From a virus, in the IMG/VR virus record IMGVR_UViG_3300050821_016084, positions 1 to 53,980 of that record: a stretch of 53,980 nucleotides of DNA. One strand, given 5' to 3'. The position numbers and the translations under genes were made by a program. The stretch's first letter is position 1; each line of letters begins with the position of its first letter. The notes under the pieces were generated by a model. That model made no database searches. It saw only the letters and a list, made by a program, of their open reading frames with translations, and was not told the origin of the DNA. This document shows positions 4,349 through 53,980 of this stretch, one piece after another.

Positions 4349-4436
4349 GCACAAGTGGCGAAATGGCAGACGCACGGGCCTTAAAAGCCTTAGGCCGCAA
4401 CTGGCCGTGTAGGTTCGACTCCTACCTCGGGTACCA
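4349..4436 (+). tRNA. tRNA-Leu (anticodon UAA)
   Basis: An 88-nt class II tRNA. The anticodon loop reads CTTAAAA, placing TAA at the anticodon. The variable arm is long with a self-pairing GGCC...GGCC stem, the T arm is GTAGG-TTCGACT-CCTAC, and CCA is encoded at 4434-4436. The sequence aligns along its length with bacterial tRNA-Leu. Odd point: the acceptor stem pairs poorly, GCACAAG (4349-4355) against CTCGGGT (4426-4432), with an A-G and an A-C mismatch and a G-T end pair. Confidence 0.9.
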
Positions 4437-6919: not shown

Positions 6920-7105
6920 TCACCATTTAGGCTGAACGCGCAACGATTCCAGCTGGGCAAAGGTAACATCGGTCCCCCTTACCTTCTGCAATTCGGCAAT
7001 GGCGGCTTCAATGCCAGCCACAATCTCAGCTGCTAAATTGTTGGTATTAGCTGAGTCCAGTACAACCTTGAGCAAAGACAGTACCAGATCTATGACGTTG
7101 ATCAC
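6920..7105 (-). CDS. Small helical hypothetical protein
   Basis: A 61-aa, mostly helical protein whose ATG (7105) overlaps the lipoprotein stop (ATGA). The first 20 residues are hydrophobic (INVIDLVLSLLKVVL), followed by an Ala/Glu-rich helix. Function unknown; its coupling to a lipoprotein gene suggests the two are made together. Confidence 0.65.
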   Translation of the reverse strand: MINVIDLVLSLLKVVLDSANTNNLAAEIVAGIEAAIAELQKVRGTDVTFAQLESLRVQPKW

Positions 7106-7473
7106 TTAATTATCCCCTTGATATCGGTGACTGCTTGGTTGGCGTTATTCAAAGCTGACTGCAAGCCTGCCTGGAAGCTCGAAACCGGCACGCACTTTTG
7201 ATTGGGATCAGGGGGAGGGCCGGAAGTTGCCCAGCCACAGTAGAGCTCGGTGGCAGTGATCAGAGCGTTCTGGGCAGCTACCCCACGATTGATGGTCACA
7301 CAAGTGGGCAGCTGGGGATTATTGGTACAGCTGGTTTGGTACTCGGATTGGGCACTCACCAGCGCACCATTCAGGGCAGCCGCCGTATCCCGGGCATTCT
7401 TTTCCACCCCACTGGGACAGGCCGCTAGAACCAGCAGCAGTGGGAAGGGTAGCAATTTCAGCATAAGTTTCAT
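7102..7473 (-). CDS. Small lipoprotein, possible outer-membrane spanin
   Basis: A 123-aa protein with a signal peptide ending in the lipobox LAAC (cysteine near residue 19), so it should be lipidated and exported. The mature part is helical and contains four further cysteines that could form disulfides. In a lysis region of a Gram-negative phage a small lipoprotein is often the outer spanin subunit, but no matching inner spanin is certain. Its transcript follows a hairpin resembling a terminator at 7502-7531. Confidence 0.75.
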   Translation of the reverse strand: MKLMLKLLPFPLLLVLAACPSGVEKNARDTAAALNGALVSAQSEYQTSCTNNPQLPTCVTINRGVAAQNALITATELYCGWATSGPPPDPNQKCVPVSSFQAGLQSALNNANQAVTDIKGIIK

Positions 7474-9224: not shown

Positions 9225-9620
9225 TTAGCGGGGGTCCGCTGATGCCACAAATTGACAGGAGGCAGTGGTGCCATTGACGGTGTACACTGAGATATTGCAA
9301 CGACATCCCAGTGCAGGCTTATTGGAAACACTTCTAAACTCTCCACTGGTAGAAGTCGACTGGTCAAACTGATTGTAGGTGGTACCACCATCTACCGAAC
9401 ACTCAAAGTTAGTGGTAATGGCTGTAGCCGTGCCTCCCGAGACCACCACTTGCCAGGAATATTTGTTGTAGATCCCGGAGAAAAAGAAAGTGGTCCCGGC
9501 CCCGGTTGTAGCTGTGCCTGCCGGGATTGAGACTGCCACTGAACCCGGAGAATAGGTAGCTCCCCAGAGCAGCACGGTTCCCAGCAACAATAGTGAGAGA
9601 ATTCCTGCAATTCGTTTCAT
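9225..9620 (-). CDS. Exported beta-rich protein with signal peptide
   Basis: A 131-aa protein starting with a textbook signal peptide: basic start (MKRIAG), hydrophobic LSLLLLGTVLL core, cleavage probably after WGA (about residue 21). The mature part is Thr/Ser/Gly-rich beta structure (GTTFFFSGIYNKYSWQVVV; ECSVDGGTTYNQF) with four cysteines that could form disulfides. It is coupled (ATGA) to the basic protein upstream. Its resemblance to a decoration or fibre-tip domain suggests a surface-exposed product, but why a phage late gene exports it is unclear. Confidence 0.75.
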   Translation of the reverse strand: MKRIAGILSLLLLGTVLLWGATYSPGSVAVSIPAGTATTGAGTTFFFSGIYNKYSWQVVVSGGTATAITTNFECSVDGGTTYNQFDQSTSTSGEFRSVSNKPALGCRCNISVYTVNGTTASCQFVASADPR

Positions 9621-14328: not shown

Positions 14329-14720
14329 CAGATTTCTCCCACATGCTTGGCATTCACGCTGCCTGCAATCAAAGTAGTAGTAGAGCTAAACACCAGTCCT
14401 GCCCGAAACGCAATTCTATGTAGTGCCTGCTCTCGTGGTCTGGAGCATATATCCAAACAAGCTATGTAGCCTAGGCATTTCCGGGCCCTGAGATCCCGGA
14501 TAAACTGGCGTAGAAGCTTGCCCAAGGCCCAGTGCGGTGCGCTTTCAAGCATCTTCAGCCGCCAGATAAACACCAGCCCATGGCAAGGTGCAGCAATCAG
14601 TATGCCCACCACTCCTCTCTCACCATCTCTCGCCAGCCATACCCAGTGATCATCCAAGGTCAGCAGAGGCCAATTCTCGCCTTCTTTCAAGCCCTCCGGG
14701 ATGGCATCCAGATCAATCAC
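14328..14720 (-). CDS. GNAT-like acetyltransferase
   Basis: A 130-aa protein with a GNAT-like layout: strands (WPLLTLDDHWVWLARDG; VVGILIAAPCHGLVFIWRL), a helix rich in Arg (LGKLLRQFIRDLRARKC) at the place of the acetyl-CoA-binding loop, and a final AFRAGLVF segment. GTG 14720 overlaps the upstream TAG (TAGTG) and is preferred to the upstream ATG at 14765. GNAT-fold proteins occur in podovirus tail regions between tail-hub and ejection genes; the substrate is not known. The canonical Q/RxxGxG/A loop is not obvious, so activity is uncertain. Confidence 0.6.
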   Translation of the reverse strand: MIDLDAIPEGLKEGENWPLLTLDDHWVWLARDGERGVVGILIAAPCHGLVFIWRLKMLESAPHWALGKLLRQFIRDLRARKCLGYIACLDICSRPREQALHRIAFRAGLVFSSTTTLIAGSVNAKHVGEI

Positions 14721-17326
14721 TACACGGTCACCCTGCCCCGCACCGCTTTGGCAATCGCCAGCCAATCAAACGAGTCGACTTCAATAATCCCAGCCCCCGC
14801 CACATCCGCATGCGCATCAAATCCGGTGATTCCAATCTCAGCATAGGCCACAAATTCTCCTCCACCCATGGGCAACACTGCCATATTCTGAGTCGCCAGA
14901 TTCGATCCCACCACTCCATTGACAGTGATCTGGGATTTAATAGAATCAGGCGTTCCCCTACCCCGGATCTCCAGCTGCCGGAAATAGACCCTATCGCTGG
15001 CATCCTTGCCAAAGACTTCTGGGGATCTCACCGACCAGCGCACAATCTGGTCTGTAGAACCTGCCGTAATTGCTCCAGAATCCCAATTCACATCTCCTGC
15101 CTGCCATCTTCGCATGGCCATATCCGAGAATCCCCCCATTACGGTAATGGGAATTGATCCCGGAGTCCGCACTGTTTTCATTGCACCAATGGCAAATGGC
15201 AGATCTATAATTATCCAGCCCTTGAGTACCAAGTCATAGCACAACAATCGGTTCAGCATACCGGCACTGGTAAAGGGCACAGTAGCAGGAAAGCCCGGAT
15301 TCAACACTAAGTTACTATTAGACAGATTGATGGAGTTTATCGGTACCAGTAAGTTTTCCCCGCCTGGAGTATTTCCATAAGCGAAGAAGTAATTCACTCC
15401 ATTAGCGGGCTGAGTCAGGTTAATCTGAAAGCAGTCACCAGAACCAATTACAATTGGACCAAACTCTTGGCTCTTGTAATAGAGTCCCTGAGCATCCTGC
15501 ATGTACAAAATGGCATAGTAGGTCCCCAAGGGAATAGTGGTCTGAGATACTCCCACATTGAAATTTATGATTGAAGTTACAGTTAATGGGAGCGTCTTAG
15601 TTGATGGTATAATTGGGACCGCACACGCGTACATGGGAGGACTGGAAACTAGTGCAGCCTTGGAGTTCCAGATGAAGTTCCAGTCGACTGCCTGAATATC
15701 GCTTAGTCCTCCGAAGATGTAAGGTCTGATCTCCTCTGATAGCAACCGGTCCCTTACCCCATCAAACATGGCAATTCCCAGATGGGTCATTCTGACAATG
15801 CCGAATCCCGGGACGAACTGAATAGTACGCGGAGCCACACAGCCCAGATCTGTCTGGGCCCGTTGAATTGAGAAGTTGGAGGCTCCAAACACGCCATTGA
15901 TCTGAAAGGTGGAGAATTCCTTGAAGGCTACCAGCGAACCAGTTGGCGGAATCCCGCTCTCGGCAATCGTATAGGTAGCGAGGCCCATCCCTTGCGAGCC
16001 ATCATCTTTATCCAGAAAGGCCACATTCAGGGGATTCCACGAATTGGGGTTGTTGAGATCGCTCATCTTGAGGCATGAGGGCCCATCAAAGTTATCAGTA
16101 GTATTATTGGGAGAAGTATTGAATACCCACAGTGACCCGGCATAGACAATGGCATGAGCAGCCCCACGAGGAGCTGGCACCGCATTCACCGGGCCTTGGC
16201 TGACCCAGATCACCGTGCCATCAGCAGTCGATTGACCTAAGGCAGTATTGAAAGCAGGGGCCCCAGCAGCCGTGGTGCCACTCTGAGTAGCCTTGTAGAG
16301 CACGCCTCCCAGCGTCATCAGATCACCGGCTACCTGAGCCGTGGAATTCGCCCGGGCCGGGTAACTGGCAGTGAAGCTATTGGTGAGTGGAATTGTGCCA
16401 CCTAGAGTTCCATCTGACTGGTAAGGCGGAAAGCCATTGCCTAACGCCAAAATCATCTTGTTATTAAATTGCAAGATCTGAGGAATGGGACTAATATTAC
16501 CAAGAATCCCACCCGTAGGCTGTGGAGGCTGCTGCCCAGTAGAAGTCCCTCCCCCACTACCACCAATACCTCCTCCACCAAATCCGCCTACTCCGCCTCC
16601 ACCTTGGATAACTGGAAGATCTGCCGGTAAATCAATAATCTTGTTTGCGAAGCTATAAACCGGCAACACCAGATTCCAGAATTGCGTGATCTGGGTAGTA
16701 TTCGATAATGGCGGACCGGTAGGAATTCGTGCTCCATCAGTAATATTATCAAGATAACTGGTGCCAATAATAGGAGTAGCATTCAACTTTTCCAAAGGGA
16801 AAGTATTACCTACTGCAGTACGGTACACATTATAAGAAACTGCTAGTGGCAATGCTGTCCAGCTTACGTTAGCTTTATGTCCAGCTGGAACTACTGCAAT
16901 AACAGTTGGACTAGGATTTGATTCCCCGCCTGCTCCATCGAGTGCTGTAATGGCCCATTCATAGCTTCCATTCAGAACACCTCCAGCTCCCCCATCGGCA
17001 ACTGTAGGTGGACCAATAGGAGAAATACCACCAGATTGCACAGATTTGATAATTCCATAATAAGAAGCTGCAGACCCTGTGGGCTGAAACAGAAACAGTT
17101 CAGTCATAGGTCCCCAGCCCTCTCGGGCAATATGTGGACCTATGGTTCCTATGTCATTGAGAACTGAAAGCAGAGAGGTGCCATCACAAGTGACCAATCC
17201 TCCCCGCTTAGTCAGCACCAGATTCGAACTGCGGGGATGCGAGCCCGGAGGCTGGGCAAAAGTGGTGGAGGCTGCGTTAACACCCTTGAGCCACTTCTTC
17301 TGCGATACTTTTTGAGACTTAGCCAT
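14720..17326 (-). CDS. Large tail-hub / beta-propeller-like virion protein
   Basis: An 868-aa protein. Residues about 115-190 form a fibronectin III-like domain (YEWAITALDGAGGESNPSP; SYNVYRTAVG). The later part has features I associate with P22 gp10-like tail hub proteins of podoviruses: a segment reading SDLNNPNSWNPLN, then LVAFKEFSTFQING, a GCVAPRTIQFVPG block and HLGIAMFDGV. A Gly-rich stretch lies near residues 235-260. It follows the fibres and precedes ejection proteins, a fitting place for the tail nozzle. Family assignment is by pattern memory. Confidence 0.7.
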   Translation of the reverse strand: MAKSQKVSQKKWLKGVNAASTTFAQPPGSHPRSSNLVLTKRGGLVTCDGTSLLSVLNDIGTIGPHIAREGWGPMTELFLFQPTGSAASYYGIIKSVQSGGISPIGPPTVADGGAGGVLNGSYEWAITALDGAGGESNPSPTVIAVVPAGHKANVSWTALPLAVSYNVYRTAVGNTFPLEKLNATPIIGTSYLDNITDGARIPTGPPLSNTTQITQFWNLVLPVYSFANKIIDLPADLPVIQGGGGVGGFGGGGIGGSGGGTSTGQQPPQPTGGILGNISPIPQILQFNNKMILALGNGFPPYQSDGTLGGTIPLTNSFTASYPARANSTAQVAGDLMTLGGVLYKATQSGTTAAGAPAFNTALGQSTADGTVIWVSQGPVNAVPAPRGAAHAIVYAGSLWVFNTSPNNTTDNFDGPSCLKMSDLNNPNSWNPLNVAFLDKDDGSQGMGLATYTIAESGIPPTGSLVAFKEFSTFQINGVFGASNFSIQRAQTDLGCVAPRTIQFVPGFGIVRMTHLGIAMFDGVRDRLLSEEIRPYIFGGLSDIQAVDWNFIWNSKAALVSSPPMYACAVPIIPSTKTLPLTVTSIINFNVGVSQTTIPLGTYYAILYMQDAQGLYYKSQEFGPIVIGSGDCFQINLTQPANGVNYFFAYGNTPGGENLLVPINSINLSNSNLVLNPGFPATVPFTSAGMLNRLLCYDLVLKGWIIIDLPFAIGAMKTVRTPGSIPITVMGGFSDMAMRRWQAGDVNWDSGAITAGSTDQIVRWSVRSPEVFGKDASDRVYFRQLEIRGRGTPDSIKSQITVNGVVGSNLATQNMAVLPMGGGEFVAYAEIGITGFDAHADVAGAGIIEVDSFDWLAIAKAVRGRVTV

Positions 17327-18582
17327 TACGGTATGATAAGCGGTCCAGTCAATCCGCCGGGTACCGTCCCTCTCAATCCATAGTCGCCATACATTCTCAT
17401 CTGGCGGGGACCTGCCACCGGCTTATTGGACTTCACCCAAGCTTCTAGCGCCTTAGCTGCTCCATCTTTGAGGGCTTGGGCTTCCTGGCGTTCCTGCTCG
17501 GCCTCCCGAAAGGTCCCCAGCATGTAGTCTTTCAGGAAGGGCTCCCAGCCCGGAGGCACGCCTAGCGTTACTGCCGACTGGCCCACGGAATAGACATAAG
17601 GCATGCGGTAGCCGTTGAGCTCCACATTGAGCTCTGTGACCGTGGCACCTGTGCCAAACGCAAAGGGCTGCGTGCCTGCCCAGCCCCGAATGCAGTTCTG
17701 TAGCTGACTAGGAGTCTGGGCAGAGTAGCTGACCACCTCGGAATTGGTACCATCAGATAACAGTGCATAGCCATCAGCCAGCAACCAGCCCGAGACTCCC
17801 GTGATGGGAATATTGATATCCCCTACCGCAATCGGGGCCGTAGTAGTCGCTGTACCTGCTGTCCGAGAAGGCGTCCAGTACAACTCTAATCGAGTTGTAT
17901 CCGACTGGGCATCGGTCATCAGAGAGATAGAAATATTGGCAGTCAGATTTCTATTTCTAAAGGTCTCTGCTTTATTGCCAAGATCCAGCTCCCAGCCATC
18001 ATAGAAGCATTGATCGAGCCGCAGCCACTGGCCCTGGAGAGTAGTCACATAACGGCGCTGGCCGGAGACGGAGGCAATTCCCACGGCATCCTGGATACCA
18101 CCCGTAATGCGAGCAGCCGCTCTTAACGCTTCATTCAGCCAGCGATACATGGTAGCAGCAGAAACGAATCCACCATCAGTATCTGGCAGGTAGGCAGAAG
18201 ACTTGACTGGAGGAACAGCAGCTACAATGTTGTTAAAATTAAGAATGGTGACTGTATTGAAAGTGGTGACTGGAACATAAAATGCCTCAGTTCCTGGATT
18301 GAATCCAAAATAGATACGAGCTGAGACGGAACCAACTGTTGCCGCATAGTTAACCTGAATTGCATTATTAGGGCCAGCCAATGTAACGGATAATTCTGAA
18401 CTGGGAAGTGACTCTCCCCACTGATTTATTTCAGTAACTACAATCGAGTATGTAGCTGGAGCAAGAGTTCCACCGGTAGTTGCGACAACACTAGTGAGTA
18501 TAGGGGGCTGCAACACTTGGGGGTTGTCTGGCCCCAGTGCCCTCACATTCATGATCAGATCGCCAACCAGTCCCTTGGGCAT
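17326..18582 (-). CDS. Tail adaptor / structural protein with FN3-like domain
   Basis: A 418-aa protein. Residues 28-110 look like a fibronectin III-type domain (ATYSIVVTEINQWGESLPSSE; ARIYFGFNPG). Helices around 140-160 (AATMYRWLNEALRAAARI) and a long terminal helix (FREAEQERQEAQALKDGAAK) resemble podovirus head-tail adaptor proteins that record the connector ring. Its start and stop abut those of both neighbours. I call it structural with confidence; adaptor is a hypothesis. Confidence 0.7.
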   Translation of the reverse strand: MPKGLVGDLIMNVRALGPDNPQVLQPPILTSVVATTGGTLAPATYSIVVTEINQWGESLPSSELSVTLAGPNNAIQVNYAATVGSVSARIYFGFNPGTEAFYVPVTTFNTVTILNFNNIVAAVPPVKSSAYLPDTDGGFVSAATMYRWLNEALRAAARITGGIQDAVGIASVSGQRRYVTTLQGQWLRLDQCFYDGWELDLGNKAETFRNRNLTANISISLMTDAQSDTTRLELYWTPSRTAGTATTTAPIAVGDINIPITGVSGWLLADGYALLSDGTNSEVVSYSAQTPSQLQNCIRGWAGTQPFAFGTGATVTELNVELNGYRMPYVYSVGQSAVTLGVPPGWEPFLKDYMLGTFREAEQERQEAQALKDGAAKALEAWVKSNKPVAGPRQMRMYGDYGLRGTVPGGLTGPLIIP

Positions 18583-18911
18583 CAGTTCACCACCGCACTC
18601 AGAGTTACCGTGAATGGTCCTACTACCGGGTTAACAGAATTAGACGGAGCGCTCTCGATAGACGAGAATACTGCTGTCACGATATAGCAATAGTTTCCAA
18701 TAGTCACCGTAGAGTCCGTAAAGGTCTTCACTGCCACCGCGCTGGCGATAGTTGAGAATGCAGGCGTGCCGCTACACGTTCCCGTAGCCCGCTTTACATT
18801 GTAGGTAGTTCCAGCAGGATTAGAGGAATCCACCCAGGTGAGCGTGACCGTGTGGCTGGTCTGAGCCAGCAATAATCTGGAGAGCAGCAATAAAATCACT
18901 AGATATCGCAT
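18582..18911 (-). CDS. Signal-peptide FN3 domain protein
   Basis: A 109-aa protein from ATG 18911, behind AGAGG; the frame runs to 18959 but that part overlaps the spike gene. Residues 1-17 are a signal peptide (MRYLVILLLLSRLLLAQ), followed by a single fibronectin III fold (TVTLTWVDSSNPAGTTYNV; YCYIVTAVFSSIESAPSN). It is essentially one exported FN3 domain. Together with the fibres it belongs to the set of late genes with Sec signals. Confidence 0.7.
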   Translation of the reverse strand: MRYLVILLLLSRLLLAQTSHTVTLTWVDSSNPAGTTYNVKRATGTCSGTPAFSTIASAVAVKTFTDSTVTIGNYCYIVTAVFSSIESAPSNSVNPVVGPFTVTLSAVVN

Positions 18912-18919
18912 AAGCACCT

Positions 18920-21514
18920 CTAGTCTGGCGTGGGTCCAGTTCCACAGGGACTTGCACAAACATATTGGGTAGCGGTCTGCGCAGAATCAATGGCAGTAAT
19001 ACTGGCTCCCAAGTCTTTCCCATCTGAACCAGCGTTATGAGCAACCGAGCTCGAATGCAGAGCATAGCCATGCCAGTCATTGAGATCAATGGCCGAATTC
19101 ACTGACGGGCTTACTTGAGTGCCCCCACCACAAAAACTGGTGCCGGTAGTGGACGAATTCAGTGCTCCTGAGAAGCCCACCGATTTCCCATCTCCAGCAC
19201 TGGCCCCAAAGGTATAGGCCGTGGCTGGGAAAGTAAAAGTAACCGGAGGATGAGTTGGCACTCCAATAGTGGCATACTCAGTGTAATCAACCACACCAAC
19301 ACCGGAAGCAGGTCGTGAGCCATTTTCCTGCCAAGTTACCGTGTTATCCGCCACACAGGAAAACAGACTACCTGAAAATGCTGGGGCTGAGCCCCCACTG
19401 GTTCCATTGGTTACTGCCAAGTAATTATGCTGAGGAGAACTTCTGCCAATCACATCTCCTAGTCTATACACTGTTCCAGATGCCCATGCGGGAGCATTGC
19501 GATCCGCCCACATATCATGATGGGCAATCAGAGTAGTGGTATCCAGATTAGTATTCTCAAATACCGTGCCGTCATTACCGCCCAAGGTAGACCAGCCGGT
19601 GGTTCCAGTAAAGATATTGTTTATAATAGTCTGATTACGGGCTCGCGAGCCGCCACCGGGACTGGAGATCCAAGCATCTCCTACTAAGGTATTATGCTGA
19701 ATCAAAGTATAGTTTGGCCAGCCATTACCATTGCCAAATGAAGTGCAGGTAGTCGTAGCATTGGCTGTGCCAGTGTTGGGATAGGTGATAGTCGTACCAG
19801 ACACAGTAGTTGCAATAGTAAACGGGTAGGCTGCTACATTGAAAGTGGTATCCGTACAGCCTGATAAGGTGATGGGATCACCCGCTACCAGCCCGGTCTG
19901 GTTCTCTCCCACTCCTCCTGCCAGTTGGATAGTTGCAACTGTCCCGGCACCATTACGAGTAACAGAAGTAACCGTGAAGCTGTGAGAACTGGTGATCACA
20001 TTAAGCGTGAACGCATTGGTAGGACAACTCCATGCACTCCTAAGACTGATATCGTAGACCAGATTATTCTGGAAAGTGGAATTCCGGCCCGGAGTAGAAG
20101 CCGACACCCCGTTATTGGTATTGTCACTGTTGGCATCGTATCCAATTCCCGCGCATCCATGACGAGCTAAATTATTCTCAAACGTGATGTTGGCCATGGT
20201 CTGAGCGTAGTTATCACACGGGTTAGGCGTACAGGCCCGGTTATTGAGACCTACCAGCCGTCCCGCCTGCCCGCCACTATTATCCGAGTTCTCAAAGATG
20301 TTTCCCGCCAACACGCAACGGTTGCAGCCCTTCAGCTCAAACGAGTTCTTGCGCACGCAACTGATATTCACACCACACACTGAGCTGGCCCCGCTCCCAT
20401 TGCCTAACCACGCCCATGGATAGGTAAAGCGATTGCGCCTTACCTCAAGATCCGACGCTGAAGTTCCCACTGGAGACGAGCCGGTCACGCCTCCATCAAA
20501 GACTGGAATCGAAGTCCCATCAATCCAGTTGTGAACAATCTTTACTTGCTGGGCACCAATCCAGTAGATTCCATGGCCTTCACTACCGGGACGAATAGAC
20601 TTGGAAATCTGAGAATTTACTACCCAACAGTTTTTGCCACAATCCAGCTGAATATCGTTGGATAAAGAGTTCGTCCCTGCTCCCGCATCAGTGGCATCCC
20701 CATGCACCCATACGCGGTCAAAGCCATAGTCATGAGGCATGCCCGCAATCGTAGAAGAATTGTTGCCCATGGAGATCGGAACGCAACAAGCAATAGAACT
20801 GGATAGCCTGACCTCGGCATCCCTAATAACAATGTGATTGGGGCCATTGCCATTCACATCAGCATTGCCACCTTTAATAGCACTGCCATTCACAGTCGTG
20901 GTCTCAAGTGTATACATCGAGGTCACATCATTGTAGGCCGAAGTGTTGGTATTGGTGCCGTTGGCTAACGTGAAAGCGCCTGGTGGAATTGAGGTAATCG
21001 TGGTCCCCAACTGGTAGCTCATCCCGGTCGCGTTGCAATCCGGATTACGAATCCCGGGATCAGTCGACTGTGCCAGGTTATCCTGAATGCCATGGGTACA
21101 CACCGTCTGGCCTACCGTAAGCGGAGTGTCAGACTCAAACACGATACACTTGGTAGGCATGCCTGCTCCCACAGACTTAGCCAATAAAGTCAGGCTGCTA
21201 TTCCCAGTAATCAGCGTCCCATGAGCTATTACCACATGCCACCACTGGTCCGCTGCTGCCACCCAGTCAGTCATGGCATTGTTAATCCCTGCCCAAGTAG
21301 CGGGATAGCTACCCGGTATGGTCTTAGTCACATCATAGGTACCACCCGGAGGATTGCAGGTCTGATCATTGGCCCATGCTTGGGGAAGCAGAGCTATAGT
21401 TTGAATCGGTGCCGTCCCTGGAGTATTGATGGATACCCCGGTAATCTTTACACCTGTCACTGTGACCTGAGACCAGCAGGCCGTGGTGAGAAGAATGATA
21501 AGCATCAGCCGCAC
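18920..21514 (-). CDS. Tailspike-like parallel beta-helix protein with signal peptide
   Basis: An 864-aa protein. It begins with a short signal peptide (MRLMLIILLTTACWSQ) in which LTTAC may serve as a weak lipobox. The central region shows repeated short strands with Asn/Gly turns (HIVIRDAEVRL, KIVHNWIDG, DLEVRRNRFTY, ITFENNLARHG, NSTFQNNLVYDI, NQTIINNIF), the signature of a right-handed parallel beta helix as in phage tailspikes and pectate lyases. It is Cys-rich, unusual for a cytoplasmic virion protein. Likely a host-surface polysaccharide-binding or degrading spike. Confidence 0.82.
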   Translation of the reverse strand: MRLMLIILLTTACWSQVTVTGVKITGVSINTPGTAPIQTIALLPQAWANDQTCNPPGGTYDVTKTIPGSYPATWAGINNAMTDWVAAADQWWHVVIAHGTLITGNSSLTLLAKSVGAGMPTKCIVFESDTPLTVGQTVCTHGIQDNLAQSTDPGIRNPDCNATGMSYQLGTTITSIPPGAFTLANGTNTNTSAYNDVTSMYTLETTTVNGSAIKGGNADVNGNGPNHIVIRDAEVRLSSSIACCVPISMGNNSSTIAGMPHDYGFDRVWVHGDATDAGAGTNSLSNDIQLDCGKNCWVVNSQISKSIRPGSEGHGIYWIGAQQVKIVHNWIDGTSIPVFDGGVTGSSPVGTSASDLEVRRNRFTYPWAWLGNGSGASSVCGVNISCVRKNSFELKGCNRCVLAGNIFENSDNSGGQAGRLVGLNNRACTPNPCDNYAQTMANITFENNLARHGCAGIGYDANSDNTNNGVSASTPGRNSTFQNNLVYDISLRSAWSCPTNAFTLNVITSSHSFTVTSVTRNGAGTVATIQLAGGVGENQTGLVAGDPITLSGCTDTTFNVAAYPFTIATTVSGTTITYPNTGTANATTTCTSFGNGNGWPNYTLIQHNTLVGDAWISSPGGGSRARNQTIINNIFTGTTGWSTLGGNDGTVFENTNLDTTTLIAHHDMWADRNAPAWASGTVYRLGDVIGRSSPQHNYLAVTNGTSGGSAPAFSGSLFSCVADNTVTWQENGSRPASGVGVVDYTEYATIGVPTHPPVTFTFPATAYTFGASAGDGKSVGFSGALNSSTTGTSFCGGGTQVSPSVNSAIDLNDWHGYALHSSSVAHNAGSDGKDLGASITAIDSAQTATQYVCASPCGTGPTPD

Positions 21515-24500
21515 TCAATTTCTCCCGTGACAGATATAGCTGACCGTTCCGGTCTGAGCCGAGTCAGACGAGAATTGCAAGGTGGTCGTATTCAAAGTTG
21601 AGATCCAGATGCGATGTGCCCCGGGGTCGAACTGGATTCCAAAAGTGCATTCCGGGTGGCTAGTATAGGTACCAGCAAAGGTGTAAGTAGCACTGGTGGT
21701 AGAGGCTGAGAAGGCTAGTTCGCCCGTCAGATCGGTATTCGATGCCGTTCCAGTATTGATTCCAGGCGTGCCCGTAAAGGTACCCTGGGCAGCTGTCACC
21801 GTTCCTGAGATATAAATATTGCGGGGTCGATTAGCACCCACAGCTCCAATATCATAGCTAGCATCTAGGCCTGCAAAAAAGTGACCAGCAGCAGAAACCA
21901 ACCAGCGCTTCAGGCCAGAATTGGGAGTTGTGCTAGACCCACTGGGATTCGATGTCCAGAAGTTAACTGCCCCACCGTTACCTGCACCCGTGGACGGCCC
22001 ACCCGTGATGTCGGTGTCAGTGCCGGTTTGGTCTGTCCCCAGAGCAGTAGCCCTGCCCAGCATGCCGCCATATTCCAAGATCGTGCGCGTGGCATCATTA
22101 GCTGCAGTGGGATCGCTACGCCCGCCAATCCAGACCGGACGAGCAGAAAGATTCGATGATGAACCCACAGTGCCATCCATCCAGGTCAGCACGCGAGTTC
22201 CTAGGTCTTCCTGAATCGCTCCACTAAACTGAGTGGCTGCTCCGGTAGTTGGGTAAGACCAGTTGATTGCATTGAGTCCACCCGGTAGCACCACATGAAT
22301 ATCCCACTTGTGATACTTCTGACCTGCAATTTGTGGTGTTCCGCCTGCCGAGCAGCACCACCAATCAGTACGAGAAGTTTGCAGGTTGGAAATACTTACA
22401 CTGCCACGTGGATTCGGCCATATAGCAACCTGCCCACCTGAAACCCCGACATCCTGAATCCGTCCCGAAGTGACCCCGGTTGTTCCGTTTGCGCCATCAA
22501 TTACGTTCTCGTTCATGTACTGCAAGACCATGCCACCGCTTGAAATCGTGCCATGATTCCAGTTGGGTTCAACCATTAGGCTGGTAGTGTTGTCCGGCGC
22601 TGGACAGAGTGTGAGCGGGTACTTGGTCAGCAGGCCACCAGAGAACGTTATACTAGTAGCAGTATTCGAAGTGATCACTCCATAACAGTTCGCGCTGGTG
22701 CCACTCAAAAACCCGACCAGATATCCGGTGAAAGCGTTCACTGTCCATTGCGCCGTATTCGACGGGGCCGCCGTGGGCACAAAGACCGCACTTGACGTGC
22801 CCCCTGTCCAACTATGGGAGTTATCCGGCGATCCAGTGGAAGCCGTCACTAACATATTCGAAGCAGCAAAGGTTGGAGCAGCATTAGGCGTGTAGACTGC
22901 CCCGCTAGTTCCTCCTACCCAAGTATGCGTGGAGTCTGCCGTCCCGCTCAGATTAGTGAGAAACAGAGAACTGCTAGAATTAATTCCCGGCGTCGGCGTG
23001 ACCTGTGTAGCCGTAATTCCGGTCACGCCCTGTGTAAAGGTTTCTCCAGGAGTGATTGGAGTAGCTCCATTCGTACCCGTTACAGTAGCCAAGTTAGAAG
23101 GCTTGATGAGTACGGTTGCAGTCGATCCCGTAACGGCTTGCGTAATCGTCTCACCCACAGTAAATATCTTGATCGTGTTTGATCCGGCAATAGTCTGGTT
23201 AGTGTCGGTCACCGAGGTGGTTGTGCCACTAGAGGCCACGATGGGAGCCGCAACCGTGCCTGCACCAATGAATCCACCTGAATCAGTGGCGACTTGGTAA
23301 TAGGCACCATCGCCGGTAACAAAGTTGCCAGAGTAGATCGTCCCTACGGGAGCACTCGTTCCCGGTGCCCATCCCGCCGCCTGGTTCGCATTTCCTGAAT
23401 CAATCAGATAGAGGTTGCTGGCAGAAGCCATCTTTCGGCTTTCTGAGCGAACATGCTCCATGACCATAGGGCCCTGCGGGGCTGAAGAAAGAACGTCGTA
23501 TCCAGTCTGAGAGGAGAACCCATTCTCAAAAGTCGTACCGTAGATAGTAATGAATCCGCCACCGTAGTTGGCGATGCCGTACTGGGGAGAACCCTGAATG
23601 TCGCCCCCGTACCAGCCAATCGCGAGTGCGTTCTGGGCGAGACTTGTCGAGGTACCGATCTGCCATGCAGCAGTGGTAAAACTTTGCGCGGCGCAGTCAT
23701 AACAGTAGATATTCGAGCCTTGGGCCCCACCCCCAGACTTTGCGATCTGTACGCCAACTGCTGCAGTGCCTGATCCAAAGAAGCCATTATTGTAGAAGTC
23801 GATAAATTGCGGCTTCAGATCGCCCGTTGTATCTACTCCGTTATAGTCCAGGTCAATTAGCGGTAATGTGGAGGATGCAGCACTGGTCCACCCGCAATCG
23901 TAGAAAGCACCATAGGCTACAGATTGGCCATTAAAAATGCGGGCATTAGTAGCAGTCTGCGTGATCCCAGAACTTAGTCGGCCATCACAGACTATCTTGA
24001 AATTGATGACATCGAATAATTGTAATTCGCCATTGATGGAGTAGTTGTTAGCAAGATGCAACGGACGATTGAAGACATTGAGCCCGCTACCATTGCTACG
24101 AGTAGGCGAAGGGCCATTTCCGAAAGCTGCCCAGATCGAAGCTTGCAAGGCTTGCGTATTAGTAGTTGCGGAAGCCATGGCCGAAGCCCCCCACCATTCC
24201 GGCCTAACATCCTGAAGAATTGCGGCGTTGGTAAAATCAACCGCCCCGGTGGTAGCTGTACCTTGAGCATTGAAGAAAATCTGGTGCAGGTCAGGATCAG
24301 TGATGCCTCCCAGAATCGTCGCGGTCGCATTACCGACCTTCAGCGGTTGCATACAATAGACCCAGGAGCCAGTGGGCGAGCTAGTGATGGTCTGATTCGC
24401 AGTGACCGAACCGCCCGCACTGGCTAGCTGATACTGGGAACAGGCAAATCCGTTGGTCGATTGTCCAGCCAATCCTGCAGGCTGCGTAAACCCCGCTCCC

Positions 24501-25948
24501 TGAGTACAGGTTTCCGCAGTAAACGGTTGCCCGCCGTAGCCGAATAACAGTGAACCAGCCGTGGTTGTTACTGGCCCGGAAGTCATAGTGGTTGTATCCG
24601 CGTTGGTGCAGGCTCCCTTGCCATCTGGAGATACCACCGGCCCCATGCCCGAGAACTGATCTACGAGCACCTGGATATGCGTGGTCGCGCCGTTGGCATT
24701 GGCGGTGATGGTGCATGTGCCACCATTCGCGTTAGAGGCTACCCACAGACCAGTGTTGCGCGGCTGGCCAGCCAAAGATTGCTGGACGTGATAGAAAATG
24801 TCTCCGCAGTCATCAGTGACACTGGAGATTTTGAACGTGAATCCGGGGTATGGTGCAGCTGAAACCACCAACGTGTTTCCTACCGTAACACTCAGTGTGG
24901 ACGAGCCATTGGTAGCGTTAGCCGTGTTGCAGAGCAGCCCGCCCCCGCCCCCGTTGCATTCCACACTCGTTCCATTGACGAAACCAGCTCCCCCGACTGG
25001 CGTAGTCGAGGAAATCATCTCAAGCGCTCCTCCGCCCGAGAAGTCATGGCTCACATTTGCAGGGAATACTGTGTTCTCCAAGCGACAGTGCGCAGAGGGC
25101 GTGGTTAAGCCTATCCAACGGATAGTGGCTTCCTGAGGGCCAATGGCGTTAAGCAAACCCTTGATTCCGCCACTCGGGCCAGTCGAAGTTGAATCCGCTA
25201 CACCATCGCAGGTAGCCCAGTCACGAGTATCGTAGATAGCTTTGGTCTGGGTGACCGGTAGCGAGCCAGTGCCGGTAGTATAAAACGCTCGGGCTGGAGT
25301 ATTGGCAACTGCTGCAGTAGTGTTTAGTCCTGTTCGGAAAACCAGACCATTTGATCCGGGATCAGGTAGGCCACCTCCACCACCTCCTCCACCTCCGCCC
25401 CCACCAGTAGATGAAATGGTTACGTTACCATGACCATCATCCAAGATGGTGATGTTAGATCCGGCAATCAGATTCAGTAGAGCTTGGGAGCCGTTGGGCA
25501 CACCGTTGGTTTCTAGAATAACCGTGTAAGGAGGAAGTGTAGCCGCTGCAGCTTGTAGTTGAGCCGTGACATCCTGAGTGGTTCCGGTGATGGTAATTAG
25601 GGTAGTAAAGCAAATAGGTGGCCCGGGAAATATGCCAATCGCGGTGCAGAGTGAGAACATCCACTGCGATGGAGTTGGAGTAATCTGAAGATTGTCCGCT
25701 AGTGATACTATAAATTTTCCCTTGGAGTCGCAACTGATAGGCACTACCGTCTGAAATACCGAGCCACCTAGCAAATATGGCCCTGCTCCCGGAGTAGAGT
25801 TCTGGCCAGTGAAATTAGCCGAGCCACTACAGGTACGATAGATAGCGTTGAGGGGATCTTTTACCGTAGCCGTGACAGTAGTATGCTGAGCAATAGCATG
25901 CAAACTTAACAGTAGAATAAAGCTAGCGAGTATAAATAGTCTTTTCAT
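21515..25948 (-). CDS. Giant tail fibre / tailspike with signal peptide
   Basis: A 1477-aa protein, the largest of the genome. Order: signal peptide (residues 1-21, LFILASFILLLSLHAIA); an Ig-like domain to about residue 140 (TVTATVKDPLNAIY); a run of about 12 glycines near 180-192; a beta-rich region; a tailspike entry motif VRPEWWGA near residue 580 followed by NTQALQASI, which marks pectate-lyase-like beta helices; two approximate duplications near 905-1065 (GGTSGAVYTPNAAP and GGTSSAVFVPTAAP; GETITQAVTG and GETFTQGVTG); and a C-terminal domain (residues about 1400-1477). The stop is one base before the next gene's start. It is probably the main receptor-binding fibre. Confidence 0.85.
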   Translation of the reverse strand: MKRLFILASFILLLSLHAIAQHTTVTATVKDPLNAIYRTCSGSANFTGQNSTPGAGPYLLGGSVFQTVVPISCDSKGKFIVSLADNLQITPTPSQWMFSLCTAIGIFPGPPICFTTLITITGTTQDVTAQLQAAAATLPPYTVILETNGVPNGSQALLNLIAGSNITILDDGHGNVTISSTGGGGGGGGGGGGLPDPGSNGLVFRTGLNTTAAVANTPARAFYTTGTGSLPVTQTKAIYDTRDWATCDGVADSTSTGPSGGIKGLLNAIGPQEATIRWIGLTTPSAHCRLENTVFPANVSHDFSGGGALEMISSTTPVGGAGFVNGTSVECNGGGGGLLCNTANATNGSSTLSVTVGNTLVVSAAPYPGFTFKISSVTDDCGDIFYHVQQSLAGQPRNTGLWVASNANGGTCTITANANGATTHIQVLVDQFSGMGPVVSPDGKGACTNADTTTMTSGPVTTTAGSLLFGYGGQPFTAETCTQGAGFTQPAGLAGQSTNGFACSQYQLASAGGSVTANQTITSSPTGSWVYCMQPLKVGNATATILGGITDPDLHQIFFNAQGTATTGAVDFTNAAILQDVRPEWWGASAMASATTNTQALQASIWAAFGNGPSPTRSNGSGLNVFNRPLHLANNYSINGELQLFDVINFKIVCDGRLSSGITQTATNARIFNGQSVAYGAFYDCGWTSAASSTLPLIDLDYNGVDTTGDLKPQFIDFYNNGFFGSGTAAVGVQIAKSGGGAQGSNIYCYDCAAQSFTTAAWQIGTSTSLAQNALAIGWYGGDIQGSPQYGIANYGGGFITIYGTTFENGFSSQTGYDVLSSAPQGPMVMEHVRSESRKMASASNLYLIDSGNANQAAGWAPGTSAPVGTIYSGNFVTGDGAYYQVATDSGGFIGAGTVAAPIVASSGTTTSVTDTNQTIAGSNTIKIFTVGETITQAVTGSTATVLIKPSNLATVTGTNGATPITPGETFTQGVTGITATQVTPTPGINSSSSLFLTNLSGTADSTHTWVGGTSGAVYTPNAAPTFAASNMLVTASTGSPDNSHSWTGGTSSAVFVPTAAPSNTAQWTVNAFTGYLVGFLSGTSANCYGVITSNTATSITFSGGLLTKYPLTLCPAPDNTTSLMVEPNWNHGTISSGGMVLQYMNENVIDGANGTTGVTSGRIQDVGVSGGQVAIWPNPRGSVSISNLQTSRTDWWCCSAGGTPQIAGQKYHKWDIHVVLPGGLNAINWSYPTTGAATQFSGAIQEDLGTRVLTWMDGTVGSSSNLSARPVWIGGRSDPTAANDATRTILEYGGMLGRATALGTDQTGTDTDITGGPSTGAGNGGAVNFWTSNPSGSSTTPNSGLKRWLVSAAGHFFAGLDASYDIGAVGANRPRNIYISGTVTAAQGTFTGTPGINTGTASNTDLTGELAFSASTTSATYTFAGTYTSHPECTFGIQFDPGAHRIWISTLNTTTLQFSSDSAQTGTVSYICHGRN

Positions 25949-26926
25949 CTAATAGCCAATACAACTAAACTGAATCTTATCTCCTGAGACTACCGTGCCA
26001 GTCACAATGGTTGCTGTTGTAGCATTTGAAGTAGTCTGATGAGGATTGGTAACGTCTGCTAAGGTTGTGATGTCCACTACTGTACAGCTCCAACCGTTTG
26101 GGGCTGTGGCTGAATCTCCCATAGTTACAATTTCAGTGCAACTGGTAGAGCCAACTGTAAACGTACCTGCCGTTGCTCCTCCTGTAGTAGCTGAGTCAGT
26201 ACACCCATTATTAGTGGTGAACTTAGTACCAACCGACATATAACCAGAGGCTTTTACTTTTGCGGTGGTGTCCCCGACTGCGGTGCCGCTCCCAACTGCA
26301 ATTACTCCAGCAGCAGAACGAGAAAGTCCTGTATCCCTAGTTCCCGCTTCTGTTCCGCTCGTCCACGCCTGGATCACCGATACGCCCATGCGTTCCACGC
26401 CAGCAGTGTTGAAGTTGAAGTCGATGCCGGTATTCGCAACAGGATTTAAGTTAAATCCGCCACCCAGATAAAACCCGGTCTCATTTCCTGCTGTTCCATT
26501 ACCTACAGCCATCTGATTTGCAGCAATTCGTGACAGGCCCACATCACTATTGATTGTGAAAGCCCCACCACTTGCTAAGTTAACCTTAGAAGTTCCGTCA
26601 GTCGTGATTCCAGCTACTACCTTGGTATCGTTTCCGCCTGCCCCTAGAACAACTGCATTGGCAGTCAGCGCTCCACCTGTATTTGTAACCGTACCCGCTC
26701 CTGCTCCAGTTGCTAAAGCAGTCCATGTATTAGCCGGAGTACATTGATTCAAGCCAGCCGTAGCAGCAGTTTTGAAATAGATCTGGCCCACCACACAGGT
26801 CGCAGGCAGAGCTGGTCCAGAGTCAGGCAGAACTCCCAGAGTAGGCGTATTCTGCCATGCGGTCAGCGGGGCTAGTGCTGATAGCAATGCCAAAGCAGCC
26901 AGCACAGAGATAATGGCTCGTTTCAA
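25949..26926 (-). CDS. Tail fibre protein with signal peptide
   Basis: A 325-aa protein: signal peptide (AIISVLAALALLSALAPLTA, residues 4-23), then Gly/Thr/Ala-rich repeats typical of phage fibres (VGQIYFKTAATAGLNQC near the N-terminus; AANQMAVGNGTAG; AGVIAVGSGTAVG). The C-terminal 90 residues contain four cysteines and a compact beta domain (SCTEIVTMGDSATAPNGWSC in part). The first fibre module looks like those in short-tailed phage fibres. It abuts the giant fibre and was probably duplicated or exchanged with it. Confidence 0.78.
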   Translation of the reverse strand: MKRAIISVLAALALLSALAPLTAWQNTPTLGVLPDSGPALPATCVVGQIYFKTAATAGLNQCTPANTWTALATGAGAGTVTNTGGALTANAVVLGAGGNDTKVVAGITTDGTSKVNLASGGAFTINSDVGLSRIAANQMAVGNGTAGNETGFYLGGGFNLNPVANTGIDFNFNTAGVERMGVSVIQAWTSGTEAGTRDTGLSRSAAGVIAVGSGTAVGDTTAKVKASGYMSVGTKFTTNNGCTDSATTGGATAGTFTVGSTSCTEIVTMGDSATAPNGWSCTVVDITTLADVTNPHQTTSNATTATIVTGTVVSGDKIQFSCIGY

Positions 26927-27423: not shown

Positions 27424-27501
27424 TCCTTTACCTTTTTCTCCCTTACCACCTCGATTGTTGTGGTTAAGGTTACTTGCGCCACCTTCTGGGTTACGCTTCA
27501 T
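27424..27501 (-). CDS. 25-aa Gly/Lys/Asn-rich micro-protein
   Basis: A coupled reading frame starting at ATG 27501, which shares a base with the capsid stop TAA (TAATG). It encodes a short, basic, Gly- and Asn-rich peptide (NHNNRGGKGEKGKG end). A longer frame back to 27606 would lie inside the capsid gene and is not needed. It resembles the other basic micro-genes of this operon. The frame's stop lies at about 27421-27423. Confidence 0.45.
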
Positions 27502-28526
27502 TATGTGCTCAAAACTTTTATGCCCATTCTGGGGGCCAGATCCTCTACCTGCCACGTCAGGAACATCTGCGATGTGATCACATCCTGATTTGTCGGACGC
27601 AGCCATGGGGTCAGTCTAAAGTAACTGCCCGGGTGGAAGACCGGATGCAGATACTTGGTGTTGATAATGTAGTAGACCTGGGCTGCGATAAACGGGTCAT
27701 CCAGCACCACTGCATTGTTGAACAGGAAGTGATAGCGGAAACCAGCCTGCACAGCCTCGCGGTCCTGCATGTTGTCGCCGTAGCGGGCAAAGTAGCTGGT
27801 CCCGGCTCCCATGAACTGAGCCTTGAAATTCACGTAGCGGGTACGGTCGCCCAAGATGAGATCGGGCTCGTCGTAGCCCAGCTTCACAGTGGCGTAGGCC
27901 GTGTCCATGATCACGGCTGTGATAGCTGTGGCTGTGGTCGACTGCGGAGTGGGCGGCTGCCAGAAGGAGTTGGCCGCCACTGACCGGTCGATACCAGCAA
28001 TCACGTTGGTGGCAATAGTGGCTGTGGTGGGCGAGGCAGGCGTGCCCGAGCCGATCCAGCTCTCGATATCGTCAATGTCGTTGGCGGTATTCTGGGGAGT
28101 GGTATGCCATAAAGCTCGTGAGAGCTTTTGGAGGAAGGAGGACGAGGCCGCCTCTACCTTCATTTGGATGATGTCGAGACCCGAGCCCGCATTTCGAATC
28201 ACATCCGTGACTGGAATCGAAATAGCTTCGTAGTAATCGCGCCAGACCTGATTGGCAGGCTGGATCGAATCCGTCACCGTGGTATTCAGCAACTGAGCCC
28301 CTACATAGGCACCACCCGTCAGCTCCTCAGTAAAGAGCAATGGGTAGATCAGCTCGCCACCTTTGAAGACTTTGCCCTTGCGACACAATGCCCAAAAGGT
28401 AGAAGAAGGCAGCATCACGTTGTCGGCCAAGACCGGCTCGATGGCCTTCTGGGTTATAGCCTGCATGGTATTCGCAAGCACTGCCGGAGGTGCGTTAATC
28501 CCAGTTCCGAATACGCCGCCTGCCAT
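27501..28526 (-). CDS. Major capsid protein (HK97 fold)
   Basis: A 341-aa protein, the expected length. It has the features of HK97-fold coat proteins in podoviruses: an N-terminal arm (NAPPAVLANTMQAITQKAI), a long helix before ESWIG, a P-domain region (MDTAYATVKLGYDEPDLILG) and a late GYRYHF-like block (GFRYHFLFNNAVVLDDPF). It follows the scaffold gene in the usual order. A ribosome site (GGAGAG) is 6-7 bases upstream of the ATG. Confidence 0.88.
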   Translation of the reverse strand: MAGGVFGTGINAPPAVLANTMQAITQKAIEPVLADNVMLPSSTFWALCRKGKVFKGGELIYPLLFTEELTGGAYVGAQLLNTTVTDSIQPANQVWRDYYEAISIPVTDVIRNAGSGLDIIQMKVEAASSSFLQKLSRALWHTTPQNTANDIDDIESWIGSGTPASPTTATIATNVIAGIDRSVAANSFWQPPTPQSTTATAITAVIMDTAYATVKLGYDEPDLILGDRTRYVNFKAQFMGAGTSYFARYGDNMQDREAVQAGFRYHFLFNNAVVLDDPFIAAQVYYIINTKYLHPVFHPGSYFRLTPWLRPTNQDVITSQMFLTWQVEDLAPRMGIKVLST

Positions 28527-44005: not shown

Positions 44006-45148
44006 ATGAAATACAACATGCTGTTGCTGTTGTGCTCGGTACTGGGTACTTGTTACTCGGTACTATCCCAAGACTCGTGCTCTGCCTATAGCCACAACTT
44101 GGGACCGTTTCCCACCTATACTCCCAATGGCATTGATCATGTCAGTGGGAACCATACCTTCGTAAACTACATGTCTGGGAGTTGTGCTTACTCGGGAGAT
44201 GCCGGGCCCTGCGATACTGTGGCCAAGGCTAAATCCCAGTCGCTGATGGAAGAGAGTGGCTCTATCACGGGTGCTCCCCTCTATGTCCATGAGACGGCTA
44301 CCGCTGACCAGGGAGGTCTCGCTACAGCCTCAGGTTCGTCAGTGGCTAGTGCTTCGGCAGAAGGCGGAGGAGCGGTAACCCGCTGTGCTTCCTGCTCGTT
44401 TACCATGACACTCTCAGGACCCGGGGGAACTTTCTCCTTCAGCCAGACCCCGCGCTGGTCGACCAAGCAGTCGTACACCAATACCTGCCCCGCGCACTCG
44501 GTACCGGTAAATAGCTGTGGGGCCCCTAAAAGTCTCATTAACCCCTGTGGACCTTCGCCTATTCTGATTGACACAGCTGGCCAGGGCTTCCACTTCACCG
44601 ATCCCGCGAAGCTCGATGGCTATGTGACCTTCCGTTTTGGTGGGGCACTTAAGCGCGTCTCTTGGCCCGACTGGCACTACGAGAATGGCTGGCTGGTATT
44701 GCCAGACGCCAATGGGGTAGTCGATGACGCCGATGATCTTTTTGGCAACTACACCGCCCACTCCAATGCCGATTACACCCCGTTTAAGAACACAACTGAT
44801 CCCAATGGCTGGCTGGCGCTGGCCTTCTACACTCAGCCCTCTCAAGGTGGCTCAGGCTCAGGCGTTATTGACAGAGGGAGCCGCATCTGGAATAAATTGC
44901 GCGTCTGGAAGCCCAAGCATTGCCACTTGAAACCCGATGAAGCTTGTGTGGCTCTGGATAGCGAGTTATTCCGGCTGGAGGAGCTGGGCATCCACTCCAT
45001 CTCGACCGTCTACACCGTGGTTGACCAAGTGGATAAAATCGGCAACCAATGCAGCTTTGTGGCGCTCATTAATCCCGATCCGGGAGAACGCCAGAAATCC
45101 CATGACTCGAAGCTAGCCTGTGATTTCAATCTGGCAGTGAAGAAGTAA
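44006..45148 (+). CDS. Exported host-like protein
   Basis: A 380-aa protein with a signal peptide (MLLLLCSVLGTCYSVLSQ, residues 5-22), a Ser/Thr/Gly-rich middle and a C-terminal domain starting at residue about 185: PSPILIDTAGQGFHFTD, then LVLPDANGVVDDADDLFGN (a DxNxDG-like calcium loop), later GVIDRGSRIWNKLRVW. This domain resembles those at the end of many secreted Acidobacteriota proteins, from memory. It has its own ribosome site (GGAGG) after a 120-base gap. Probably an accessory gene moved from a bacterial genome, with surface or receptor role. Confidence 0.78.
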   Translation: MKYNMLLLLCSVLGTCYSVLSQDSCSAYSHNLGPFPTYTPNGIDHVSGNHTFVNYMSGSCAYSGDAGPCDTVAKAKSQSLMEESGSITGAPLYVHETATADQGGLATASGSSVASASAEGGGAVTRCASCSFTMTLSGPGGTFSFSQTPRWSTKQSYTNTCPAHSVPVNSCGAPKSLINPCGPSPILIDTAGQGFHFTDPAKLDGYVTFRFGGALKRVSWPDWHYENGWLVLPDANGVVDDADDLFGNYTAHSNADYTPFKNTTDPNGWLALAFYTQPSQGGSGSGVIDRGSRIWNKLRVWKPKHCHLKPDEACVALDSELFRLEELGIHSISTVYTVVDQVDKIGNQCSFVALINPDPGERQKSHDSKLACDFNLAVKK

Positions 45149-53823: not shown

Positions 53824-53980
53824 GTGGCTACTAAAGACCCATACCGATGGCAAAAGCGCTGGGCGCAGAAGAATGTGAATAAGGGTCGCTGTGCCAGTTG
53901 CGGTAAAAAGCGTAAGCAGTATAAAAGGTTATGCGACTATTGCCAGGGCAAAGCCACCATCTACATGAAGCGCTACCGGG
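53824..53980 (+). CDS. Small CxxC zinc-finger protein, 5' part (gene crosses the contig join)
   Basis: Start of the 69-aa gene completed at bases 1-144. GTG is the only start in a frame that opens with VATKDPYRWQKRW. Its first half lies beyond the left end, its two CxxC pairs fall inside and after the 91-base repeat. Read in one piece it makes a basic zinc-finger-like protein coupled to the RusA-like resolvase. Confidence 0.85.
   Translation, partial: MATKDPYRWQKRWAQKNVNKGRCASCGKKRKQYKRLCDYCQGKATIYMKRYR
53890..53980. repeat. Terminal direct repeat, right copy
   Basis: Identical to bases 1-91. Confidence 0.97.

Follow-up and report, generated by a model that had tools for sequence, protein, structure and literature searches.

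Genuine-looking secretion signals together with paired cysteines suggest that a group of short-tailed soil phages, Mx8 and Mx9 among them, makes its fibre- and spike-like parts outside the cytoplasm. In textbook tailed phages all virion parts are built within it. The analysis concerns one stretch of viral DNA of 53,980 bases, here called the window (IMG/VR virus record IMGVR_UViG_3300050821_016084, positions 1 to 53,980), and its relatives.

Genome setting and virion operon

The window ends in an exact 91-base direct repeat (1-91 and 53890-53980) and so probably represents a complete genome assembled as a circle. Its minus-strand late genes follow the order known from Mx8, namely capsid, small protein, adaptor, 868-aa structural protein, GNAT-like protein and ejection-type proteins (Table 1). 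Four consecutive genes with signal peptides (SPs) separate the small protein (27406-27008) from the adaptor (18582-17326) as an insertion, and a fifth, 9620-9225, lies beyond the genes for the ejection-type proteins. Neither the N-terminal domain (N-domain) of the big fibre nor the capsid protein had a relative in pattern scans of GTDB genomes. We infer a diderm host from a lipoprotein near the lysis genes. The lipoprotein-like gene (7102-7473, minus strand, LAAC lipobox) is near a VanY-type endolysin gene (8474-7950), and if its product is an outer spanin, as is possible, this would indicate a diderm host. The early region also holds a tRNA-Leu gene (TAA anticodon; 4349-4436, plus strand), and in two relatives small genes with Cys motifs, by eye probably HNH homing endonucleases, are inserted amid the structural genes (L001:937-1416, L002:1674-2213).

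Table 1 Features of the window discussed in the text. SP, signal peptide, with its score on the von Heijne-type scorer; a slash marks the predicted cut
Feature	Position	Strand	Remarks
Major capsid protein, no SP	27501..28526	-	Distant homologue of Mx8 and Mx9 capsid proteins
fibA, 325-aa fibre-like protein, SP residues 1 to about 24	25949..26926	-	Predicted mature start QNTPTLGVLPD; SP score 9.0
Big fibre/spike, 1477 aa	21515..25948	-	SP, beta-sandwich N-domain, beta-helix-like spike region, variable C-terminal part
Big fibre SP, MKRLFILASFILLLSLHAIA/Q	25889..25948	-	Score 10.6
N-terminal ('TTL') domain of mature big fibre, about 110 aa	25538..25888	-	Module in 29 phage proteins
Spike-like protein, 864 aa, 23 Cys, short SP MRLMLIILLTTACWS/Q	18920..21514	-	Score 6.5, weakest of set
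109-aa FN3-like small protein with SP MRYLVILLLLSRLLLA/Q	18582..18911	-	Score 6.2; FN3 likeness by eye
Head-tail adaptor (SU10/P22-type), no SP	17326..18582	-	Marks virion operon; SU10_adaptor, E 0.0078, under curated cut-off
868-aa virion structural protein (tail nozzle/closure position), no SP	14720..17326	-	phrog_3287, 2.3e-7; gene order as Mx8 p51-p53
131-aa protein with SP	9225..9620	-	MKRIAGILSLLLLGTVLLWG/ATYS; score 7.8

Signal peptides of the late genes

The original prediction had placed export signals on five late genes starting at 26926, 25948, 21514, 18911 and 9620, and genes and starts are read in the sequence as it described them. Start codons, ribosome sites and the N-termini of the precursors were taken from the window sequence itself, and SPs were scored with a hand-written von Heijne-type scorer with a pass mark of 6, on which, in one E. 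coli stretch used for calibration, six proteins taken as exported reached 7.2-8.6 and all cytosolic proteins stayed at or below 4.3; single-TM proteins score high on it too. The five genes score 6.2-10.6 and are called secreted, each with a basic n-region, a hydrophobic h-region and small residues at -3 and -1, the call for 21514 being marginal. They appear to begin with genuine Sec/SPI-type signal peptides, with cleavage and export predicted. The cut sites as written are our own reading, and the optimum of the scorer differs for 26926, 21514 and 9620.

fibA has a TTG start behind a strong ribosome site (taggagg) and an N-terminus reading MKRAIISVLAALALLSALAPLTAW/QNTPT. The big fibre (MKRLFILASFILLLSLHAIA/QHTT) starts at an ATG directly after the preceding stop with no clear Shine-Dalgarno sequence, and the spike (MRLMLIILLTTACWS/QVTV) at a GTG in the same position relative to its preceding stop, where the gene caller chose an internal ATG instead, which scores 4.0. 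The N-terminus of the FN3-like gene is MRYLVILLLLSRLLLA/QTSH.

Scores above 6 were obtained for 7 of the 71 called window genes, four of which make up the consecutive block, an arrangement with a chance probability of about 4e-5 (post hoc hypergeometric). Besides the five genes, 44006-45148 and the lipoprotein 7473-7102 pass. The former, on the early (plus) strand, encodes a 380-aa protein with an SP-like N-terminus (MKYNMLLLLCSVLGTCYSVLS/Q), 12 mature cysteines and no Pfam or PHROG match. That export signals on fibre- or spike-type late genes would be exceptional for tailed phages agrees with the scores of P22 and T7 structural proteins, none of which exceeds 4.8; among the P22 and T7 late proteins tested only the spanins score high.

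The lipobox L-[AST]-[AG]-C is absent from the four clear SP genes and is fitted only by 7473-7102 (LAAC), LTTAC in the 21514 spike being a poor match. On reading, no Tat motif ([ST]RRxFLK with weak hydrophobicity) is seen in the SP sequences, whose cores are strongly hydrophobic. Export of the SP proteins by Sec is in our judgement highly likely.

Selection on the signal peptides

Across 24 homologous pairs from IMG/VR relatives mean identity is 40% in the SP compared with 77% in the next 40 residues (Wilcoxon 1.8e-5, the pairs not being independent). For the big fibre of the window and of relative L001 the SPs are 35% identical and similarly hydrophobic, while the next 40 residues are 100% identical. 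The fibA SP is 21% identical to that of L001, against 80% for the mature part, with the upstream RBS DNA conserved, and over L001-L003 the mature N-terminus is 68-80% and the SP 21-25% identical; in the 9620 protein and its L002 homologue the first 40 mature residues are 88% and the SPs 50% identical. Because the letters are rewritten while a hydrophobic core and an A-x-A/Q-type cut site persist in relatives, the SPs of the big fibre, fibA and the 9620 gene appear to be selected as SPs, for the pattern rather than the letters. The spike and the FN3-like gene have one homologue each, about 90% identical throughout, and the short SP of the spike has hardly diverged in its sole homologue.

Nearly all of 34 SP proteins from other phages have an A or G before Gln where a cut can be placed, which is a reading and not a test since the script prefers sites before Q. 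The same slot in contig L009/L004 holds genes that start with SPs, one of them sharing the N-domain and the others not homologous to those of the window. Alternative starts that skip the hydrophobic part and keep a ribosome site would have spoken against secretion; behind the SP, the window and the relatives checked show no conserved start that has a ribosome site. Codon 19 of the window spike is a GTG, absent from its closest homologue, and in several relatives the SP start is the sole one.

N-terminal domain and cysteine pairing

The N-domain was found in 28 other viral contigs of IMG/VR. Conservation of the signal in relatives, a check proposed with the original prediction, is seen in 26 of the 29 N-domain proteins, where the SP stands directly before the domain; the other three (L016 and L028, which form one lineage, and L140) have no SP on it, but there the domain is also free of cysteine. 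In the window the domain has four cysteines, in the pairs C40-C73 and C101-C113 (precursor numbering). Over the 29 proteins the first and second cysteine occur together in 19, singly in none and are both missing in 10 (Fisher 5e-8), and for the third and fourth the counts are 18, 0 and 11 (Fisher 3e-8), values that overstate the evidence as related sequences were treated as independent with no tree. Cross combinations are not significant (p=0.11), and copies with the first pair only and with the second pair only both occur.

The N-domain and the signal are separable, since L016 and L028 make the domain without an SP; in L016 and L140 an SP is found on a gene next to it. In L016 the two modules are split, the domain being a separate small, SP-less and Cys-free protein (L016:777-1457) whose stop is overlapped by the start of a fibre with its own SP (L016:1454-4180). 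The product of L140:3246-4973 is N-domain-like, 575 aa long and without an SP; it has one cysteine, and its C-terminal half matches a PHROG head-decoration family. The downstream N-domain copy of L140 seems to start at ATC.

The proteins had further been described as Cys-rich, in keeping with oxidised, exported proteins; the richness holds and the fit is supported. The big fibre has 24 cysteines, the spike 23 and the 26926 protein 6, compared with zero in the ejection-type proteins (12085-10565, 13301-12093, 10587-9805). The median per 100 aa is 2.03 for SP genes and 0.35 for SP-less late genes (54 vs 157, p=1e-13), a comparison that is approximate, as is the Mx4 scan described below, because the mini gene caller misses genes such as Mx8 p64. 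These data suggest that the mature SP proteins are oxidised, with their cysteines disulfide-paired. At the level of sequence, the comparison of relatives shows both selection on the SPs and the pairing of the cysteines.

Fibre and spike identity

In 158 of 165 pairs the N-domain is common and less than 20% of the remainder is shared, so that the SP genes look mosaic, a conserved N-domain being joined to an unrelated remainder as in the layout of receptor-binding proteins. The model of the N-domain (pLDDT 81) is a beta sandwich whose fold matches in BFVD include podovirus tail fibres but are weak (best 1e-4). Residues 239-905 of the big fibre are modelled poorly by AlphaFold (pLDDT 45), as a low-confidence beta-helix, and the best PDB matches for this middle part are weak, mostly tailspikes at E>0.05; over the fold searches as a whole the best PDB E is about 0.01. 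Pfam and PHROGs gave no match for the window SP proteins; hits to PHROG tail fibre families come from proteins of a few relatives (L030 3.7e-8, L137 3.5e-5) and from Mx8 p64. Enzyme-like SP genes are also present, GH18-like in L137 and GDSL lipase-like in Mx9, the former (L137:7952-9847) encoding a Glycosyl hydrolase family 18 (chitinase-like) protein with an SP in a phage fibre cassette. In 20 kb of LIT1, a phage whose SGNH protein was a fold-search match and lies outside this stretch, no SP was found on the proteins scored. Overall the fibre or spike identity of the SP proteins is supported, and they likely belong to a receptor-binding or receptor-processing class.

Mx8, Mx9 and other known systems

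Mx8 and Mx9, P22-like podoviruses of Myxococcus xanthus, share with the window a homologous major capsid protein, a common gene order (capsid, adaptor, nozzle, GNAT-like, ejection) and an SP-bearing tail fibre (Mx8 p64, Mx9 p14) beside further SP genes. They differ in that their fibre sequences are unrelated to those of the window and their SP genes do not lie between capsid and adaptor. Both p64 and p14, annotated as putative tail fiber, begin MRYLPSAAGLAVGVLLGVIISVSTPASA/TRNSVGTYTLPGGNPVV or nearly so, and in p64 the predicted cut falls after residue 28, with TRNSVGTYTLPGG as the predicted mature start. The same domain starts at Met in Stenotrophomonas phage BUCT555, in Bradyrhizobium phage ppBjS10J-1 and in all 80 of the IMG/VR homologues fetched, a biased sample in that these are the ones most similar to an SP-less query. 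Most simply, the fibre of Mx8 and Mx9 would have gained its SP. Beside the fibre gene a mosaic swap is visible: the GDSL-like protein of Mx9, which bears an SP (L035:6467-7192), corresponds in its second part to Mx8 p67 (L031:38169-39367), whereas the preceding Mx8 p66 is different. Mx4 infects the same Myxococcus host and has a contractile tail; none of its tail-region proteins that were scored bears an SP, which disfavours a host effect as the explanation.

P22 gp9, T7 gp17 and the Sf6 tailspike resemble the window proteins in their modular layout, beta-helix-like middle and place in a structural operon; P22 and T7 virion proteins have no SP, whereas those of the window are SP-bearing and Cys-rich. 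Lys44 of Oenococcus phage fOg44 is a Sec-exported phage endolysin (PMC6116005), and it and the SAR endolysins are likewise phage late proteins that use host Sec, but they are lysis enzymes whereas the window proteins are of fibre or spike type. The variable target proteins of phage DGRs, ligand-binding like those studied here, are said to lack SPs, unlike surface-displayed bacterial DGR proteins (PMC6199706); the window family breaks this expectation, with no DGR seen as far as examined. In the open-licence literature we found neither an earlier description of SP-bearing phage fibres nor a publication on the signal peptides of Mx8 and Mx9.

Proposed mechanism and alternatives

In the mechanism that we propose, the receptor-binding or receptor-degrading fibres and spikes of a Mx8/P22-like podovirus would be made as Sec precursors, exported by host Sec and cut by signal peptidase I at an A-x-A/Q-type site, and folding and disulfide formation of the mature proteins would take place in the periplasm of a diderm host or further out. 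Heads, tail adaptor and ejection proteins would be made without signals and assembled in the cytoplasm. When lysis merges the compartments the exported fibres would dock onto finished particles via the conserved N-terminal beta sandwich, and before docking they could remove or cover receptors on the dying cell and on cells around it. Docking at lysis is preferred because in P22 the tailspikes join last, when the particle is otherwise complete, and because the window phage would otherwise have no visible receptor-binding protein.

The best explanation as a whole, Sec-exported and oxidised receptor-binding or receptor-degrading fibres that dock at lysis, we hold to be an even call, and docking on virions after export, the mechanism preferred, to fall slightly short of that. 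Somewhat more tentative still is a lineage with two-compartment morphogenesis, in which Sec-exported, disulfide-bonded receptor-binding proteins would be added at lysis to cytoplasmic, DNA-filled and adaptor-complete particles. To our knowledge tailed-phage particles assemble in the cytoplasm and no tailed phage builds its particle outside; a precedent for docking after export was not found in the open-licence literature. Counting against the best explanation are the enzyme-like SP genes, the separable domain and signal, the short SP of 21514 and the weak fold matches.

The main rival, which we consider rather unlikely, is that these are secreted proteins that never join the particle, such as late depolymerases, deacetylases, chitinase-like enzymes or lectins, which would digest or mask surface glycans for release, for clearing of the matrix or for blocking re-adsorption or superinfection. 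It would account for SPs that look real, for cassettes that include GH18-like and GDSL-like enzymes and for Mx9 p15, which matches a PHROG filed under moron/host takeover. It also has a counterpart in WceF of Pantoea stewartii, a tailspike-like trimeric beta-helix exopolysaccharide enzyme made with an export signal (PMC7949094), although WceF is a bacterial enzyme with a Tat signal encoded outside any phage operon. However, the window would then be left without a receptor-binding protein, as none of the other window proteins examined looks like a fibre or spike. A conserved N-domain with a variable C-terminal part and a position between capsid and adaptor are the layout and place of virion fibres, relatives match tail fibre PHROGs, and the SP-less N-domain protein of L140 carries a head-decoration PHROG domain, all of which argue against this rival.

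Under a dual fate, export would be inefficient or regulated, so that part of the protein stays in the cytoplasm and enters virion assembly while the rest is exported and acts on the envelope. This would square real SPs with assembly in the cytoplasm and would suit those SPs that are short, but is improbable given that no conserved internal start with a ribosome site lies behind the SP and that the strict pairing of cysteines argues for an oxidised functional form. The suggestion in the original prediction that the hydrophobic ends are membrane-piercing virion parts fares worse and, like retention of these ends in the virion as uncleaved anchors, is very improbable. The N-termini are indeed hydrophobic and the scorer does not fully separate single TM segments, but the signal-peptidase cut-site pattern is conserved where the hydrophobic letters are not, the hydrophobic N-termini are 15-30 residues long, SP-less homologues exist and disulfide-type Cys pairs stand directly behind the N-terminus. 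Just as improbable is recent capture of bacterial secreted genes with vestigial signals, for although beta-helix, FN3-like and GH18 modules are in general common in secreted bacterial proteins, the signals persist between deeply diverged proteins, where they have been rewritten and not eroded, pattern scans of limited sensitivity over 84,980 genomes gave no cellular relative of the N-domain, and Mx8 compared with its SP-less homologues suggests that a phage fibre gained the SP.

Implications

If host-recognition proteins are routinely exported and oxidised before they reach the particle, morphogenesis, the timing of lysis, the control of superinfection and fibre biology would have to be rethought for these soil phages. 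Annotation that takes a signal peptide as the sign of a bacterial gene would then misfile such phage proteins. As Mx8 and Mx9 are cultured and share the feature, the question is directly testable.
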